Origin: an uncultured Selenomonadaceae bacterium
GTDB taxonomy: Bacteria > Bacillota > Negativicutes > Selenomonadales > Selenomonadaceae
NCBI GenBank assembly: GCA_905235685.1
Contig: CAJOMO010000003.1
Coordinates: 1-64,000, forward strand
Direction of reading: 5' to 3'
DNA: 64,000 nucleotides
Both the position numbers and the translations under genes were made by a program. The number at the start of each line of letters is the position of its first letter. The first letter of the stretch is position 1. Below are positions 2,774 through 17,117 of this stretch, one piece after another. The notes under the pieces are model-generated. The model was not told where the DNA came from. It ran no database searches and was given only the letters and a program-made list of their open reading frames with translations.

Positions 2774-3500
2774 AAAGTTGGCGAAAATTTTATCCGAAAG
2801 TACTCGCGCAGTATTTTTCGGCGGTGCGGGAATGTCAACTGAATCCGGAATACCGGATTTTCGCAGCGCCAACGGGATTTACAATCAGCGGCTGAATCAG
2901 AAATTTCGCCCCGAAGAAATTGTGACGCATACTTTTTTTATGAATTGCCCCGCGGATTTTTACGAATTTTATCGGACGCGCATTGTCTACCTTGACGCGA
3001 AACCCAACGCCGGTCATATCGCGCTGGCTGAACTTGAACGCAGAAATATTTTATCGGCGGTTGTCACTCAAAATATTGACGGGTTGCATCAAGCCGCCGG
3101 CTCAAAAACTGTGTACGAATTGCACGGCTCGGTGCGCAGAAGTTTTTGTGTTAAATGCGGCGAAAATTACGATATCCATTATATTGTCGAAAATAAACCT
3201 ATTCCGTATTGCGCGAAATGCGGCGGGCTGGTGCGCCCCGACGTTGTGCTGTATGAAGAATCGCTTGACGAACAAGTTTTGAAGGCGGCGATAAAGGCGA
3301 TTAGCGCGGCTGATACGCTGATTGTTGGCGGCACGAGCCTTGTGGTTTATCCGGCGGCGGGGCTTGTCGATTATTTCAACGGCGAATATCTGATTATCAT
3401 TAACAAGAGCGAGACACACGCCGACAGGGAAGCGGAGCTGATTATCCGCGAAAATATTGGCGAAACTTTGAGCAAGGCGGTTGAATTGATTGGACGATAA
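2760..3500 (+). CDS. cobB: Sir2-family NAD-dependent protein deacylase
   Basis: A 246-residue sirtuin that removes acyl groups from lysines using NAD. Visible motifs are GGAGMSTESGIPDFR (NAD pocket), TQNIDGLH with the catalytic region, HGS, and a four-cysteine zinc site CVKCG...CAKCGG. GTSLVVYPAA closes the Rossmann fold. Length and motif order are standard for bacterial CobB/SrtN. It is translationally coupled: its ATG overlaps the preceding gene by 14 bases and its end overlaps the next start by 11. Why a deacylase sits between two glycan-type genes is not clear from the sequence. Confidence 0.93.
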   Translation: MDKIKKLAKILSESTRAVFFGGAGMSTESGIPDFRSANGIYNQRLNQKFRPEEIVTHTFFMNCPADFYEFYRTRIVYLDAKPNAGHIALAELERRNILSAVVTQNIDGLHQAAGSKTVYELHGSVRRSFCVKCGENYDIHYIVENKPIPYCAKCGGLVRPDVVLYEESLDEQVLKAAIKAISAADTLIVGGTSLVVYPAAGLVDYFNGEYLIIINKSETHADREAELIIRENIGETLSKAVELIGR

Positions 3501-4170
3501 AAAAGTTGCCTTTATAACCTGCGTCAACAGCGATTATTGGTATTCGGAATGCGTTTTGTACTTGAAACATTTGAAAATTCCCGACGGTATGAGCGTTGAA
3601 ATTATTCCCGTGCGCGGCGCAAAATCTATGACGGCGGGCTACAATTCGGCTATGAAAATTTCTGACGCGAAATACAAAATTTACCTGCACCAAGATACTT
3701 TTGTTGTGAATAAAAATCTTATCGCCGACCTGCTGAAAATTTTTGCCGATAAAAGTATCGGCGCGGTTGGAATGATAGGCTGTCTGCATTTGCCGATAAC
3801 CGGCGTTTGGTGGGACGGTATGCGGACTTTTGGGCGCGTTTTGCATGCGTGCGAGCCGGAGAGCGTGGTTGATTCCGAATGCGACGAACCGGCGGGCGCT
3901 TATCAGGAAGTTGAATCAGTCGACGGCTTATTTTTGGCGACGCAATATGATTTGCCCTGGCGCGAAGATTTATTTGACGGCTGGCATTTGTACGACACTT
4001 CGCAGTGCAAAGAAATGAGCCGCGCTGGTTACAAAGTTGTTGTGCCGAATCAGTCTGCAGATTTTTGGTGTATTCATTGCCCGAAGGAAAAGCCGCTTGA
4101 CCCGAAATATCGGCGGTATCAGAAAATTTTTCTGCGCGAATACGGCGACGAATTGAATCCGGAGGTTTAG
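3490..4170 (+). CDS. StrF-type glycosyltransferase (family 2-like)
   Basis: 226 residues resembling the StrF-domain glycosyltransferases (Glyco_tranf_2_5). The start KVAFITCVNSDYWYSECVLYL and the central KIYLHQDTFV, where the acidic residues normally bind metal and nucleotide sugar, support this. A later DLPWREDLFDGWHLYD matches the acceptor-side motif of the family. It begins with TTG inside the sir2 end. Its last 63 codons plus the following intergenic bases are repeated in the chimeric ORF at 4172. The sugar and acceptor cannot be read from the sequence. Confidence 0.75.
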   Translation: MDDKKVAFITCVNSDYWYSECVLYLKHLKIPDGMSVEIIPVRGAKSMTAGYNSAMKISDAKYKIYLHQDTFVVNKNLIADLLKIFADKSIGAVGMIGCLHLPITGVWWDGMRTFGRVLHACEPESVVDSECDEPAGAYQEVESVDGLFLATQYDLPWREDLFDGWHLYDTSQCKEMSRAGYKVVVPNQSADFWCIHCPKEKPLDPKYRRYQKIFLREYGDELNPEV

Positions 4171-4437
4171 CGTGAACGATATTAAACCCAGCTTGACGAA
4201 TTTTCTTGACGGCTGGCATTTGTACGACACTTCGCAGTGCAAAGAAATGAGCCGCGCTGGTTACAAAGTTGTCGTGCCGAATCAGTCTGCAGATTTTTGG
4301 TGTATTCATTGCCCGAAGGAAAAGCCGCTTGACCCGAAATATCGCCGGTATCAGAAAATTTTTCTGCGCGAATACGGCGACGAATTGAATCCGGAGGTTT
4401 AGCGTGAACGATATTAAACCCAGTTTGACGAATTTTC
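3974..4437 (+). repeat. 232-bp tandem duplication spanning a gene junction
   Basis: The unit 3974-4205 is repeated at 4206-4437 with only about three base differences. It covers the last 63 codons of the glycosyltransferase, the GGAGG ribosome site and the first 12-13 codons of the next gene. TTGACGG occurs at 3974, 4206 and again at 4438, so a 7-bp microhomology marks the junctions. The few differences suggest a recent event. Confidence 0.95.
4172..4402 (+). pseudogene. Chimeric 76-residue ORF made by the tandem duplication
   Basis: The first ~13 residues (MNDIKPSLTNFLD) equal the start of the gene at 4404, and the remaining 63 equal the C-terminus of the glycosyltransferase at 3490. The frame stayed open across the junction, and GGAGG lies six bases before its GTG, so it is likely translated. 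The product lacks the nucleotide-sugar-binding half and should not be a working transferase. I treat it as a duplication by-product. It could still act as a decoy acceptor or partner domain, but nothing in the sequence shows that. Confidence 0.85.
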
Positions 4438-5249
4438 TTGACGGTGAAGATTTTTTCACCAAGATTTTGATTGTTGAAAGTGCTGACTACATTTCAGCTT
4501 TGCGGGCGATTTTTCCGGCAGCTGAAATTTTTTTTATTACGCCGGACGAAGATTTTGTTGACGAGCGCGTTAAAGTTATTGTGATGGATTATCGCGCAGA
4601 ACGACTGCCTTTTGAGCCGGAATTTTTTGACGCGATAATCGGCGATTTGACTTTGGAAGTGGTGACGAATCCGCAGGACATAGCGGCGGGCTTTTCGCAA
4701 TATCTGAAACAAACCGGCGTCTTCATAACCAGTTTCAGAAACATTCGCCACTGGAAGATTTTGGAAAAGTTAATGCACGGGAATTTTGGCGGCATTGTCT
4801 CAAGATTTTACACGCGCGCAGAATTTGAGCGGCTTATGTACGCGTCGTTTTATAAGCACGTGAGATTTTCGCCGCTCCGAAAAAACGCGCCGCCCGATTT
4901 TCTGAAAAAGCTGATTGACTGCGGCTTTGAAAATATCGGCGGCGATTTGGAAGTAGAATTTTGGTTAGTTCGAGCCGCGCGCTCATTGCCGGAACTTGCG
5001 CTTTTAAAATCGATGTATACGCCGGAAATTCGCGCAGAACTGGCGCGCCTTTTGCACAGAATTGAATATGACGTTGACACTTCAAACAGCGTCGAAAGTT
5101 TTTGGCGGCTGTACGATTCGGCGGGAATGTTCGAAGATTACGTTGCTGAATTTATCGCGGCAGTGGTAATTCATCGGGAAAATTTTTTTGAAAATCTGCG
5201 TAAAAATTCTGCGCGACCGGAAATTGAAAAAATGTACGAGGAGGCTTAA
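4404..5249 (+). CDS. SAM-dependent methyltransferase-like protein
   Basis: 281 residues. The segment from about 20 to 120 follows the class I methyltransferase order: TKILIVESADYISALR in place of motif I, then FFDAIIGDLTLEVVTNP and a strand ending KQTGVFITSFRN. The glycine-rich motif I (normally ExGxGxG) is degraded, so binding of S-adenosylmethionine is uncertain. The C-terminal ~90 residues are helical and unassigned. GTG start with GGAGG upstream. It sits between glycosyltransferase-type genes and smsC, whose ribosome site lies in its last codons. Confidence 0.6.
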   Translation: MNDIKPSLTNFLDGEDFFTKILIVESADYISALRAIFPAAEIFFITPDEDFVDERVKVIVMDYRAERLPFEPEFFDAIIGDLTLEVVTNPQDIAAGFSQYLKQTGVFITSFRNIRHWKILEKLMHGNFGGIVSRFYTRAEFERLMYASFYKHVRFSPLRKNAPPDFLKKLIDCGFENIGGDLEVEFWLVRAARSLPELALLKSMYTPEIRAELARLLHRIEYDVDTSNSVESFWRLYDSAGMFEDYVAEFIAAVVIHRENFFENLRKNSARPEIEKMYEEA

Positions 5250-5252
5250 ACG

Positions 5253-5972
5253 ATGCTGGAATTGCGGGATATTTTTTTCAGCGTTGACAAAAATGAAATA
5301 ATCCGCGGCGTGAATTTGACCGTGGAAAATAATAAATTCGTGGTGATAACCGGACCGAACGGCGGCGGCAAATCGACGTTGGCGCGGCTGATTATGGGCA
5401 TTGAGAAACCGACCGGCGGCAAGATTATTTTTGACGGGCAGGATATTACCGACGCCGATATTACCGAGCGCGCGCAATTCGGGATAAGTTTTGCGTTTCA
5501 ACAGCCCGTGCGTTTCAAAGGCATTGAAGTTTTCGACCTGCTGAAATTGTCGGCGGGCGGCAAGTTGCCTTTCAATAAAGCCTGCGATTATCTTTCAGCG
5601 GTTGGGCTCTGCGCGAGGGACTACATTAACCGCGAAGTTAATTCTTCGTTGTCGGGCGGCGAAGTCAAGCGCATTGAAATTGCGACGATTCTTGCGCGCA
5701 AAACAAAACTTTCGATTTTCGACGAACCCGAGGCAGGCATTGACCTTTGGAGTTTTAAACATCTGATACAGATTTTTGAAGATATGCGCAAAAATATCGA
5801 CGGCGGCTCAATTGTGATAATTTCACACCAAGAACGGATTTTGAGCATTGCCGACGAAATAATTGTATTGGCGGAAGGGCAAATTAAAAATCGCGGTGCG
5901 GCTGAAAAAATTTTACCCGAAATTATAAATACGGAATCAGTCCTGCGCGAGTGCGAAAAGCTGAAGAGGTGA
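5253..5972 (+). CDS. smsC: SufC-like Fe-S assembly ATPase (SmsC)
   Basis: A 239-residue ABC ATPase that powers iron-sulfur scaffold assembly. It has Walker A GPNGGGKST, a Q-loop in AFQQPVRFKG, signature LSGGEVKRIEIA and Walker B LSIFDEPEAGID. The FQQP and EAGID forms are typical of SufC rather than of transporter ATPases. Its only Suf-like partner is the SufB/D-like gene four bases downstream. No sufS, sufU, sufD or sufE is adjacent, which fits the minimal two-gene SMS type known from anaerobes and archaea. Cysteine desulfurase must come from elsewhere. Confidence 0.88.
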   Translation: MLELRDIFFSVDKNEIIRGVNLTVENNKFVVITGPNGGGKSTLARLIMGIEKPTGGKIIFDGQDITDADITERAQFGISFAFQQPVRFKGIEVFDLLKLSAGGKLPFNKACDYLSAVGLCARDYINREVNSSLSGGEVKRIEIATILARKTKLSIFDEPEAGIDLWSFKHLIQIFEDMRKNIDGGSIVIISHQERILSIADEIIVLAEGQIKNRGAAEKILPEIINTESVLRECEKLKR

Positions 5973-5976
5973 GATT

Positions 5977-6903
5977 ATGTTAAAACTTGACGAAATACAG
6001 CGGCGCTTAATCGCCGAAATTGCCGGACTTCACAAAGTGCCAATCGGCGCATATAATTTCCGCGCGAACAGCCAACTTGCGGGGCGCAACACCACCGCCA
6101 ATATCGATATCACTTCCAAAGACGACGGCAGCGGCATCGACATTCGCGTCAAAGACGGCACGAAAAACGAAAGCGTGCATATTCCGGTTGTGCTGAGCGC
6201 CAGCGGCATTAAGGAAACGGTTTACAACGATTTTTATATCGGCGAAAATTGCGACGTGGTGATTGTGGCGGGCTGCGGTATCGACAATTGCGGCAACCAG
6301 GATTCGGAACACGACGGCGTCCACAGATTTTTTGTCGGCAAAAATTCTAAAGTTAAGTACGTCGAAAAGCATTACGGTTCGGGCGACGGCGCAGGGCAAA
6401 AAATTCTTAACCCGCTTACGGAAGTTTCGCTGAATGACGATAGTATTATGGAAATGGAAATGGTTCAAATTAAGGGCGTCGATTCGACAAACCGCGTGAC
6501 GACCGCCGAATTGAAAACCGGCGCAAAATTAATCGTCCGCGAAAGGCTTATGACGCACGGCGCGCAAAAAGCTTACAGCACTTACAAAATAACCTTGAAC
6601 GGCGAAAATTCCGGCGCTGACGTCGTTTCGCGCGGCGTTGCTAAGGGAAAATCTTTCCAGAAATTGGATTTGTGCGTGATTGGCAATGCGCCTTGCAACG
6701 GTCATACCGAATGCGATTCAATCATTATGGACGAGGGCAAAATCTTAGCCGTGCCGTCTTTGGAGGCAAATCACGTTGACGCGATGCTGTTTCACGAGGC
6801 GGCGATTGGCAAAATTGCGGGCGAGCAGCTGATTAAATTAATGACGCTGGGCTTGACCGAGCAGGAAGCTGAAGAACAAATTATCAGCGGCTTTTTGAAA
6901 TAA
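5977..6903 (+). CDS. smsB: SufB/SufD-like Fe-S scaffold (SmsB)
   Basis: 308 residues, much shorter than SufB (~470), containing the right-handed beta-helix core and the C-terminal SufC-binding segment. The C-terminal part EANHVDAMLFHEAAIGKI is a close match to the SufB/SufD family motif in which Glu and His residues line the scaffold site. GRNTTANIDI and GCGIDNCGNQD earlier give candidate Cys ligands. GGTGA precedes the ATG. With smsC it should form an SMS-type SufBC complex. Confidence 0.88.
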   Translation: MLKLDEIQRRLIAEIAGLHKVPIGAYNFRANSQLAGRNTTANIDITSKDDGSGIDIRVKDGTKNESVHIPVVLSASGIKETVYNDFYIGENCDVVIVAGCGIDNCGNQDSEHDGVHRFFVGKNSKVKYVEKHYGSGDGAGQKILNPLTEVSLNDDSIMEMEMVQIKGVDSTNRVTTAELKTGAKLIVRERLMTHGAQKAYSTYKITLNGENSGADVVSRGVAKGKSFQKLDLCVIGNAPCNGHTECDSIIMDEGKILAVPSLEANHVDAMLFHEAAIGKIAGEQLIKLMTLGLTEQEAEEQIISGFLK

Positions 6904-6924: not shown

Positions 6925-6952
6925 ATCGATAAAATTTTTGTAATTAGGGGGG
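6925..6952 (+). promoter_or_regulatory. Possible flagellar-type -10 and long G-rich ribosome site of flagellin
   Basis: ATCGATAA at 6925-6932 resembles the sigma-28 -10 element (GCCGATAA), but I see no good -35 at the expected distance. Six G at 6947-6952 form an unusually strong ribosome site ahead of the ATG at 6959. The G6 run could itself change length. The sigma-28 call is weak. Confidence 0.35.
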
Positions 6953-6958
6953 ATTTTT

Positions 6959-9140
6959 ATGTCAATTTCAATAAGAAACAACGCAGGCGCTCAATTGGCG
7001 CTCCGTGAACTCATGAACAACAACAACAAAGCTACAAAGGATTTGAAAAAAATTTCCGGCGGGCAAAAAATCACTTCCGCCCAAGACGACGCCGCAGGTT
7101 ACGCAATCAGCTCAAGAATGCAAAGCCAAATCCTTAGCCTTAATCAAGACCAAGAAAATATTCAAAATGGTATTTCAATGCTAAAAATTGCGGGGGGGGG
7201 GGGCAGAAAATATTATTGATGTCATTAAAAATTTAAAAGCCCTAGCCATTGACGCGGCGACCGATACCAACACTGACGAAGACCGCGCAATTCTCCAGAA
7301 AAATCTTGACCAGGCGCTGGGAAATATAAACGACATAGCCACGACAACCAATTACAATGGCAAAAATCTTTTGGACGGCTCTTTGGCGGCGGAAATTCAA
7401 AGCGCGTCGACCGCCACGCAAACGCAAACTAAAACTGTTTATACGACCATTGAAACTACAGTAACCGTTGAAACGACAACCACCATTGAAACCACAACAA
7501 GCGTTACTGACTTTGTCGAAGTGCCGACCACAACAACAGTTTCGACTACAACCACCGTTGAAACTACAACAACTGTTGAATCGACGGTTACAACTACAGA
7601 AACTTCAACCACTCCGATTGAAATTAGTGGCAATTCTATAACGGAGGACGGCGTTTATCAGCTGGCGAGCGATTTTACCGGCACGCTGAATATTTCGGCG
7701 CAAAATGTAAAAATCGTCGGCAACGGTACGCTTAATAACGCAACAATTAACGTCACGGCGAGCAATGCTAATCTTTGGATTCAAAATTTGAATATAACCA
7801 ATTCGGGTGAGATGAACGCGATAAAATTCGGCAGCGGCACAAATACGCTGATTGTACAAGGCGAGAATAATTTAAATTGTAGTGATAATTGGCAATATGC
7901 TGTAATAAATATCGGCGGAGGCTTAAACATACTTGGCTCAGGAAAAATAGTTGCTGATAATACGACTGACGGCTCCGGCGCTGCCGGTATTGGAAATGAT
8001 GTTAATGAAAGATCGGACGCAAGCATTAATATAGGTGGCAGCGTTGTAGTTACAGCTTCGGTATCCGGATCATACGGCGCAGGAATAGGCAGCGGAGCAC
8101 AGAGCTCTATTGGCGATATTACAATTGGCGGCAGTGCCAATGTTACGGCTAGTTCGAATTATGGAGCGGGAATAGGTAGCGGCGCTTATGGCTCTGTTGG
8201 AAATATCACAATCGGTGATAGTGCCAATGTTACGGCTCGTTCAACACATGCCCTATACATAGGCTTCGGACATGATGGTTCTGGTAATTCTTGCGGAACT
8301 GTGGCGTTAGGTAATGATATTACACTTTATCCACCTGGGACTTTTTATTTACTTTCAAGGGGTGTTCTGGTTACCAATTTGACAACAAATACCATCTTAT
8401 CAACATTAACTGAGCTGGACGAGCCCACAAATACGATTACCACAACTACGACTGAAACTGTCGAAGTGCCTACCACAACAACAGTTTCGACTACAACCAC
8501 CATTGAAACTACAACAACAATTGAGACCACAACAACCATTAACACCACAACAACCGTCACTGAACTTGTCGAAGTTGAAACTACAACAACTGTTGCAGAA
8601 ACTGTAACTGAAACTGTCGAAGTGCCGGTAACCTTTTTGAAAAATGTTATGTTCCATGTTGGCGATAAATCCGGACAAGCTTTGAGTATCAGAATTGCCG
8701 ATATGCATACAAAATCTTTGAAAGCTAATGTGCCGAGCGAGGCTGACAAGGAGCGGCTGATAAATCTTAAAAATGACGCCGATAAATACAAGGCTTTTCA
8801 AGAATTGCTTGACCAAGTGCAAGAGATGACGCTGGACGATATAAATTTGCGAACGCGCGAAAGTGCCAATATTGCAATTCGCGTTATCGACAGCGCGCTG
8901 GAATATGCGACGGATCAGGCGACGAACATTGGCGCTTATCTGCAACGCCTGGAACACACGCTTGAAAACGTAACGACCACCGCAGAAAATACGCAGGCAG
9001 CCGAATCTGTTATCCGTGACGCCGATATGGCGCACGAAATGACAGAATACACCCGCGCAAATATTTTATCGCAGGCGGCGCAGGCTGTACTTGCGCAGGC
9101 TAACAAAGACAGCAGCAACGTGATTAGTTTATTAAAATGA
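6959..9140 (+). CDS. Flagellin with beta-solenoid insert, out of frame at a 12-G tract
   Basis: Residues 1-78 are a normal flagellin N-terminus (MSISIRNNAGAQLALRELMN, TSAQDDAAGYAISSRM) and the last ~90 a normal C-terminus (ESVIRDADMAHEMTEYTRAN, QAAQAVLAQANK, ending SLLK). Between them lie two Thr-rich linkers (about residues 160-218 and 492-558) around a ~270-residue domain rich in GAGIGSG and ITIGGSANVTA repeats, which looks like a right-handed beta-helix. The gene is split at 7192-7203 by twelve G: the first frame stops soon after (…GRKYY) and the second continues to 9140. Eleven G would restore one 726-residue protein. I read it as phase-variable and OFF in this copy. A sequencing error in the homopolymer is the alternative. 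ribD follows 12 bases downstream. Confidence 0.85.
7192..7203 (+). repeat. Poly-G tract (12 G) in flagellin
   Basis: Twelve consecutive G lie at codons 78-82. Loss of one G joins the frames as IAGGGAENII. The tract sits early, before the assembly domains are complete, where slippage acts as an on/off switch. Confidence 0.95.
7515..8516 (+). repeat. In-frame direct repeats flanking the flagellin insert
   Basis: About 57 bp starting GTCGAAGTGCC at 7515 recur at 8460 with two differences in the compared stretch. The offset is 945 bp, a multiple of three. Both copies encode VEVPTTTTVSTTTT followed by more Thr repeats. Recombination between them would remove or exchange the beta-solenoid without breaking the frame. 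Confidence 0.85.
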
Positions 9141-9152
9141 CGGAGAAATTTT

Positions 9153-10241
9153 ATGACGGACGAAATTTTTATGAGCGAGGCTTTGAAAATTGCCCGCAAC
9201 GCTGAAGGGCGCACTTCACCAAATCCACTGGTTGGCGCGGTGATTGTCAACGGCGGAAGGATTATCGCCGAAGGCTGGCACAGAAAAGCCGGTACACCGC
9301 ACGCTGAAATTCACGCGTTGAATATGGCGGGCGAATTGGCGAAAGGCGCTACAATGTATGTGACGCTTGAGCCGTGTTCGCATTTTGGAAGGACGCCGCC
9401 CTGCGCGAATAGGATTGTTGAATCGGGCGTTAAGCGCGTTGTCGTGGCAATGACAGATCCAAATCCGCTGGTTGCGGGGCGCGGTATCGAAATTTTGAGA
9501 GCCGCCGGAATTGCCGTTGACGTCGGCATTTTGGAAAATGACGCGCGCAGGCTCAATGAGGTTTTTATCAAGTACATCACGAAAAAAATTCCGTTTGTGA
9601 CGGCGAAATTTGCGAGTTCGTTGGACGGGAAAATTGCGACGGTTAGCGGCGAATCTCAATGGATTAGCGGCGAAAAATCGCGGGCGTTTACTCACCACCT
9701 GCGCGATATTTCGGACGGAATAATGGTCGGCGTGGGTACGGTTTTGGCTGACAATCCGAGTTTGACGACGCGCCTTGAAAATGGCAAAAATCCTGTGCGA
9801 ATAGTGATTGACAGCCGCGCACGGACGCCGCTTGACGCTAAAATTTTGACTGATAAATTGACTGAAACGATCATTGCGGTAACGGCAAATGCTCCCGCCG
9901 AAAAAATTTCTGCGCTGGAAAATGCGGGCGCGAAAATCATTGTTGCCGGTGACGGCGAACGCGTTGATTTGAAAATTTTGATGGCGGAACTTGCGAAACT
10001 GGAAATTACTTCGATATTGCTTGAGGGCGGCGGCACTTTGAATTTTTCAATGATTCGCGCAGGACTGGTTGATAAAGTTTACGCGTTTATTGCGCCGAAG
10101 ATTTTGGGCGGTAAAAATGCATTGACGCCGGTTGAGGGCGCGGGCTTTGAGAAATTATTGGACGCAGTTATTTTAACAAATTTGCAAGCAGAAAAAATTG
10201 GCGACGACATTTTAATAAGTGGCTACACATCCAACAGTTAA
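9153..10241 (+). CDS. ribD: Bifunctional riboflavin biosynthesis deaminase/reductase RibD
   Basis: 362 residues with two domains, catalysing steps two and three of riboflavin synthesis. Residues 1-~145 are the deaminase, with the zinc site HAE and PCSHFGRTPPC and the GRTSPNPLVGAV start. The rest is the NADPH-dependent reductase (KFASSLDGKIA, SRARTPLDAKIL, LLEGGGTLNFS). Length is normal. The gene stands alone, with no ribE, ribBA or ribH nearby and no room for an FMN riboswitch (12 bases after flagellin), so it may be co-transcribed with flagellin. Confidence 0.96.
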   Translation: MTDEIFMSEALKIARNAEGRTSPNPLVGAVIVNGGRIIAEGWHRKAGTPHAEIHALNMAGELAKGATMYVTLEPCSHFGRTPPCANRIVESGVKRVVVAMTDPNPLVAGRGIEILRAAGIAVDVGILENDARRLNEVFIKYITKKIPFVTAKFASSLDGKIATVSGESQWISGEKSRAFTHHLRDISDGIMVGVGTVLADNPSLTTRLENGKNPVRIVIDSRARTPLDAKILTDKLTETIIAVTANAPAEKISALENAGAKIIVAGDGERVDLKILMAELAKLEITSILLEGGGTLNFSMIRAGLVDKVYAFIAPKILGGKNALTPVEGAGFEKLLDAVILTNLQAEKIGDDILISGYTSNS

Positions 10242-16031: not shown

Positions 16032-17117
16032 TCATACCCCCCCCCGATTGAGATTTTCTTTAATGAAAGTCAAAAATCTCGTAACGCCTTCATTTACCAA
16101 AATTGTTGGATTGTAACCGAGAATTTTTTTCGCCTTGTCAATATTCGGGCAGCGGCGTTGCGGATTGTGCGTCAAATAATCTTTGTCTTCGGAAACCGCA
16201 TAGTCGATTTTTCCGCTGTAGTTGAAAATTTCGCGCCCCGCCTCACGGTAAATTTCCGCAAGTTTTACGATTGGAATTTCCGGTTTATCAATCCCGATGT
16301 TAAAATAATCGTACTTTCCGTAAAGCAAAACCTTCAGACAGCCGGCAACCGTATCGGCGATATAGCAAAAAGTCCGCGTTGGCGTGCCGCTCGACAGAAT
16401 AATTATATCTTTGCCGTCGACAATATTTTTCGCAAAATCGGCAACAACGCGCTTGTCGTTAATCTTCATTCCAGGACCATAGGCGTTGAAGAGCCGAACG
16501 ACGCCGATTGGCATTTGGTACGCCTGCGCGAAAAGCCTGCACATAGTTTCGCCAAAACGCTTGGATTCGTCATAACAGGCGCGCGGACCGGTGCAACTAA
16601 CGTTGCCGTTGTATTCTTCGCCGGTGGGAACTTCGGAAGGATCGCCGTAAATTTCGCTGGTCGAAAAAAATAAAAAGCCGCGCAGATTTTTGCCCCTGTA
16701 AAATTCGAAAAGCCGCCGCAAGCCCCAAACATTGGCGTCAAGCGTCTCAATCGGATATTGCCGGTAAAAAATCGGTGAAGCTATCGAAGCCATATGCAAA
16801 ACAAAATGGGCGTCTGCCGCCTCGGGAATATCTTCAATCCGGTCGTGAATGATATCAAATTTCCGAAAAACAATGCGCGCGTCGTCGGAAATATTTTCCT
16901 GCCATTTCGGCTGACCCATAATAAAATTGTCAAGGCAGATAACTTTTTTCAAATTCAGTTCGCTTTTAAATCTGTAAAAGAAATGCGTGAGATAAAAGCC
17001 AATCGTCCCCGCGCTTCCGGTGATTAAAATTGTACTGCCGGAAAATTTTTCGCGCTCCGTTTCCGTCAATCTGTCGAAGGTATATTTCAAATCCTGCTCA
17101 AATTGTTTGGTTATCAT
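16032..17117 (-). CDS. UDP-glucuronate decarboxylase-like SDR with 9-G tract at its end
   Basis: 361 residues. ILITGSAGTIGFYLTHFF binds NAD, and FFSTSEIYGDP plus GPRACYDESKRFGE (Tyr/Lys catalytic pair) are the UXS-type motifs. The usual product would be UDP-xylose. An extra ~28-residue N-terminal helix precedes the Rossmann start. The last codons lie in nine G at 16037-16045, giving NRGGV then stop. Eight G would give NRGGYENIEW and ten NRGGGMKISNGN, so tract length changes only the tail. ATG with GAGGT upstream, 9 bases after rfbF. Confidence 0.85.
   Translation of the reverse strand: MITKQFEQDLKYTFDRLTETEREKFSGSTILITGSAGTIGFYLTHFFYRFKSELNLKKVICLDNFIMGQPKWQENISDDARIVFRKFDIIHDRIEDIPEAADAHFVLHMASIASPIFYRQYPIETLDANVWGLRRLFEFYRGKNLRGFLFFSTSEIYGDPSEVPTGEEYNGNVSCTGPRACYDESKRFGETMCRLFAQAYQMPIGVVRLFNAYGPGMKINDKRVVADFAKNIVDGKDIIILSSGTPTRTFCYIADTVAGCLKVLLYGKYDYFNIGIDKPEIPIVKLAEIYREAGREIFNYSGKIDYAVSEDKDYLTHNPQRRCPNIDKAKKILGYNPTILVNEGVTRFLTFIKENLNRGGV
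16037..16045 (-). repeat. Poly-G tract (9 G on coding strand)
   Basis: Nine consecutive C on the plus strand span the last codons of the decarboxylase-like gene. All three frames terminate within about a dozen codons. Confidence 0.95.

Follow-up and report, generated by a model that had tools for sequence, protein, structure and literature searches.

The window, a stretch of 64,000 nucleotides, comes from the genome of an uncultured rumen bacterium of the Selenomonadaceae, whose genus we take to be the Quinella group, with Quinella sp. 1Q7 among its genus-mates. At positions 6959-9140 it contains two open reading frames in different frames, 6959-7219 and 7188/7209-9140, which meet exactly at a run of 12 guanines, and the second frame can be read from 7209 through to 9140 (Table 1). 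A sequence-only reading had described this region as a flagellin with a large insert. That architecture stands, but the single open frame does not, as the gene is split at the G12 tract and the joined product of 726 residues requires another tract length. The flagellin ends around the insert are normal: Flagellin_N is matched both before and after the tract and Flagellin_C near the 3' end, against Pfam cut-offs of 26.6 and 23 bits, respectively. The two Thr-rich linkers are also present, and the repeat-rich insert between them contains 83-nt repeats that code for GAGIGSG...ITIGGSANVTA. Besides the G12 tract, no further lesion was found in this copy of the gene.

Table 1. Coordinates of the split flagellin gene, its parts and its neighbors in the window.
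Feature	Position	Strand	Basis or remark
SufC and SufBD-core protein, upstream neighbors outside the feature	5253..6903	+	Pfam
Shine-Dalgarno-like AGGGGGG	6946..6952	+	shortly 5' of the start codon; conserved in the ortholog of G041 (AAGGAGGGG)
Flagellin D0/D1 N-terminal part, frame 1 (ORF 6959-7219)	6959..7191	+	Pfam Flagellin_N, 52 bits; dN/dS 0.075 to the ortholog in G041
G12 tract in the D1 helix (KIA-GG.. site)	7192..7203	+	gene out of frame 3' of the tract; no poly-G in the host genome is longer
Remaining flagellin D1 N-terminal part, frame 2	7209..7400	+	Pfam Flagellin_N positions 81-137, 43.7 bits
Thr-rich linker 1	7401..7625	+	75 aa, 49% Thr
Direct repeat copy 1, 74 nt, in linker 1	7506..7579	+	91% identity to 8451-8524
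Beta-solenoid insert	7626..8396	+	AlphaFold2, confident to about 8280; alignment with 12 relatives
Thr-rich linker 2	8397..8627	+	77 aa, 49% Thr
Direct repeat copy 2, in linker 2	8451..8524	+	exactly 945 nt (315 codons) from copy 1
Flagellin D1/D0 C-terminal part	8628..9137	+	Pfam Flagellin_C, 78.6 bits; dN/dS 0.117
RibD, downstream neighbor outside the feature	9153..10241	+	Pfam

The gene lies apart from the flagellar cluster, as had been proposed, in that its neighbors code for SufC, SufD and RibD while FliD and FlgL are located on another contig (C21). The host genome also codes for four large flagellins, with lengths of 856-965 aa, and for a further one of 297 aa. Farther upstream in the window, a 76-aa open reading frame (4172-4402) duplicates the terminal part of a glycosyltransferase-like gene (3490-4170), and the same MNDIKPSLTNFLDG start also precedes the next gene (4404-5249), indicating a local tandem duplication.

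A syntenic ortholog of the flagellin gene was identified in genome G041 (contig CAJOIB010000005.1, from red deer). Between the two orthologs, dN/dS is low in both flagellin ends (Table 1) and 0.658 in the insert, with values of 0.06-0.12 for the neighboring SufC, SufD and RibD genes. The flagellin ends are under purifying selection, and their low values imply that they retained their function for most of the time since the split from G041, while the insert changes fast. The direct repeats in the two linkers could provide a second switch, since an exchange between the copies would delete the solenoid in frame.

Predicted structure and relatives of the insert domain

The insert domain spans about 235 residues and is predicted by AlphaFold2, with 13 aligned solenoid segments as input, to consist entirely of strands (pLDDT 88.3, pTM 0.89). 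The model is confident to about residue 220 of 259, and the last 23 residues or so are disordered. The beta-solenoid anticipated from the repeats is thus what structure prediction returns. In a full-length model of an intact relative (L046), both the flagellin coils and the solenoid were recovered, albeit with a pLDDT of only 68 and with disordered linkers. Taken together, the domain calls, the structure prediction and the intact relatives support a solenoid at the surface-exposed position of the flagellin, in agreement with the sequence-only reading.

The identity of the domain was searched for in several ways. The insert had no match in Pfam, NCBIfam or the PDB sequences, and a Pfam scan of 13 solenoid members gave matches at chance level only. 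A solenoid profile had one marginal match in the PDB, to a phage tail-fiber (E 0.015), and a viral fold library gave weak matches only. Foldseek with the insert model returned no significant match (all E > 0.4), those listed being mostly parallel beta-helices; the weak matches include an adhesin domain of the L. reuteri SRRP (TM 0.52) and the polysaccharide-lyase-like Cthe_2159 (4peu, TM 0.44). Neither Pfam nor the fold search thus assigns the insert to the pectate-lyase-like beta-helices or to Cthe_2159. The Thr arms may be glycosylated, as the sequence-only reading suggested; in this respect, the Pfam model PF01973 has no match in the host genome, although among the control genomes it matched in archaea only. 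The solenoid might bind carbohydrate or the host; on its stalks an adhesin would be the likeliest use, and antigen variation would fit the fast-evolving insert equally well.

The same cassette was found, intact, in flagellins of 420-920 aa from related species. In the Quinella group these are L043 (731 aa), L044 (723 aa), L046 (650 aa), L051 (919 aa) and L054, and elsewhere in the Selenomonadaceae they occur in Selenomonas ruminantium RUG13114, UBA2897 and RGIG9201. Since these genes are unsplit and have the same architecture, we reject the possibility that two genes were fused in assembly to yield the insert.

Different species have retained both the fold of the solenoid and its core motifs, and the fold is also present in giant non-flagellin proteins. 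The solenoid in the window is closest (55%) to modules of two giant tandem-solenoid proteins of genome G054 (L048 and L049), and in the tree it is nested among the giant non-flagellin solenoids with a support of 99/98. A single clade of flagellin solenoids was not rejected (AU p 0.40), for which reason we do not claim that the solenoid in the window was captured independently. The giant tandem beta-solenoid proteins (L048, L049, L053, L306) have lengths of 1.0-2.0 kaa, with open frames of up to 3.5 kaa at other loci, and one of them, L048, is split by a G11 tract.

Poly-G tracts in solenoid flagellins and in the host genome

At the position of the tract, relatives read KIA-xGG-xxxI, as in KIADGGINSIVEEL in L051 and KIAEGGINSIVEEL in L055. 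To match them codon for codon, with the reading KIA-GGG-AENIIDVI, the gene in the window would have to carry 11 Gs, and the assembly has 12. The G041 ortholog has GCT followed by G7, which is one codon shorter and in frame there, and a solenoid flagellin in genome G006 has an off-frame G7. Thus, a poly-G tract of at least eight bases sets the frame in the window, and at the same codons its length differs between homologs (G12, G7 and G7).

We also surveyed the flagellin genes gathered in this analysis, a non-exhaustive set from which one duplicate was dropped (L051 = L200, which turned 7/27 into 6/26). Of the 26 solenoid flagellin genes, 6 had a poly-G/C tract of at least eight bases, whether in codons, leader or promoter, compared with none of 101 other flagellins (p = 4.5e-5, with genes counted as independent despite their kinship; p = 2.2e-4 without the gene in the window), and the remaining 20 solenoid flagellins have no tract. 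The six tracts are located in codons in the window (G12), in L230 of RGIG9201 (G10) and in G052 (C9), between the -35 (TTGACA) and -10 boxes in G027 (G10), and in a short leader ORF ahead of the flagellin in G019 (G14) and in L272 of RUG13114 (C10). The L230 gene, from another Selenomonadaceae MAG, is broken only by its G10 tract in D1 and is open on either side. Another G10 upstream of a flagellin (L217) is situated at a contig end and could not be classed.

In the host genome, G-runs of 7, 8, 9, 10 and 12 bases were observed 2, 5, 16, 4 and 1 times, against 84, 19, 4.5, 1.05 and 0.06 expected under independent bases. The peak at nine, with few G7 and G8 runs, points to a putative poly-G phasome. 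One G9 tract is located in the window (16037-16045), and several G9 tracts in the host genome are placed exactly between -35 and -10 boxes (L065, L066, L079). In a glycosyltransferase-like gene of the host genome, two overlapping frames join at a G10 tract (L071, C10:68542-68551), an arrangement that resembles phase variation. Some MAG contigs, such as G014:C30 and C31, have runs of 20-21 Gs at their ends, which are probably sequencing artefacts, and tract counts ought to exclude terminal runs of this kind.

Similar tracts are known from the phasome of Campylobacter, where poly-G/C tract lengths peak at 9 (53%) and 10 (26%) and the majority are within ORFs (PMC6321876). The host genome shares with it the poly-G tracts and a length peak of 9-10. 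The tract in the flagellin gene has a length at which such tracts are known elsewhere to be hypermutable. The Campylobacter tracts mostly concern surface functions and affect the flagellum there too, but the largest groups are genes for the modification of flagellin glycans (PMC6321876), whereas the tract in the window lies in the flagellin structural gene itself.

Proposed slippage control and display on the filament

We favor the hypothesis, with a probability of roughly 0.6, that the gene codes for a slippage-controlled flagellin that displays a variable beta-solenoid as a minor subunit of the filament and is OFF in the assembled consensus. In its favor are the two frames that meet at the tract, the variation in tract length among lineages, the enrichment of tracts in solenoid flagellins, the excess of 9-10 G runs in the host genome and the constraint on both flagellin ends; against it stand the 20 solenoid flagellins that lack a tract, the decay of both relatives with G7 and the lack of a close match to the solenoid among solved structures. 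The solenoid between its two Thr-rich arms would replace the usual outer flagellin domain, and slippage of the poly-G run in the D1 helix would control production of the protein. With 11 Gs, the length that matches the relatives, a flagellin of about 725 aa would be made, while with 12 Gs, the assembled state, translation would end after 86 residues. The tract may switch reversibly within the population, and the protein made in the ON state may form a minor part of the filament, co-assembling with the large flagellins (856-965 aa) and the one of 297 aa. Once displayed, the solenoid might bind polysaccharide or another surface, or act as a changeable surface antigen.

A broader hypothesis, to which we give somewhat less than even odds, is that slippage specifically controls the solenoid class of flagellins in Quinella and related rumen Selenomonadaceae, having been acquired along separate routes (in codons, in the promoter spacer and in a leader ORF), so that single cells change the displayed domain, and that the solenoid in the window was derived from the giant tandem-solenoid proteins.

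The role of the solenoid could also be that of a changeable coat rather than an adhesin, with antigenic or phage-receptor variation and no binding. This is compatible with switching and in keeping with the fast change of the insert (dN/dS 0.66) and with the SufD-RibD site of genome G013, where the flagellin is present and its assembled part shows a different insert. We consider it unlikely, though far from negligible, given that fold and core motifs vary little between species and that the giant non-flagellin proteins have the fold as well.

The main alternative explanation is that the gene is a recently broken pseudogene, functional until lately, in which the poly-G frameshift represents a one-way loss. 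The G041 ortholog has a 1-base insertion near the start that shifts the N-terminal frame as well as an internal deletion, and the G006 gene is decayed with several lesions. Both relatives with G7 at the site have thus decayed, and the tract may be a mere hot spot for loss. Moreover, SufD and RibD are adjacent in the sister species G040, and the flagellin is absent from the site. However, the copy in the window has no second lesion, and dN/dS of both flagellin ends is as low as in the housekeeping neighbors. Loss alone also does not explain the enrichment of tracts in solenoid flagellins, some of them in promoter spacers and the like, and we consider this scenario unlikely, though not remote. 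A homopolymer miscount, under which the actual tract length would preserve the frame and the gene would just be on, is improbable: long homopolymers are the least reliable sites of an assembly and 12 differs from the canonical 11 by one base, but off-frame tracts occur in independent assemblies of other solenoid flagellins (G10 in L230, C9 in G052), and a hypermutable tract in a flagellin would remain in any case.

Flagellar phase variation is known to occur by DNA inversion and through glycan genes. If our interpretation is correct, toggling a displayed domain through slippage within the flagellin structural gene itself would be a new way of changing the filament surface, and an uncultured rumen lineage would possess a large poly-G phasome. 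In the literature searched, which was limited in coverage, we found no paper describing a flagellin structural gene with an internal slippage tract. Like Hin phase variation in Salmonella, switching would produce alternative flagellins, but Hin acts by inverting a DNA segment through site-specific recombination, whereas the mechanism here would be mononucleotide slippage (PMC11868660). A large outer region is shared with the giant flagellins (PMC6248924), from which the flagellin in the window is set apart by its solenoid, flanked by Thr linkers, and by the slippage tract. The genome paper on Quinella, a genus linked to low-methane sheep, describes nearly complete sets of flagellar genes, and its passages on flagella are silent on flagellin inserts (PMC9585023).

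The comparison with flagellinolysins, flagellins with an inserted protease, proved apt for the genus, which contains a true flagellinolysin (L047, scoring 214 bits for NF033876, where the cut-off is 205) and further ones in L056 and L057. The gene in the window is itself neither a flagellinolysin nor another enzyme, with 29.4 bits for NF033876 against the same cut-off and no HExxH motif in the translated insert. In both cases a whole foreign domain occupies the hypervariable region between intact D0/D1 ends, but the domain in the window is a beta-solenoid instead of a protease and its frame would be controlled by poly-G (PMC5595980). In the variable regions of flagellins, Eckhard et al. found domains of 61 families; no beta-solenoid is among the ten in their main table, and the full list of 61 may contain solenoid flagellins (PMC5595980). 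We also observed a second, unnamed insert domain, which is marked by the motif GFSI(L)CG[GTQ]CxQ(Y/F)I and is common in the genus (L041, L042, L043, L055, L058). The solenoid, the protease and this unnamed CGxC domain may constitute a set of modules for flagellar display.
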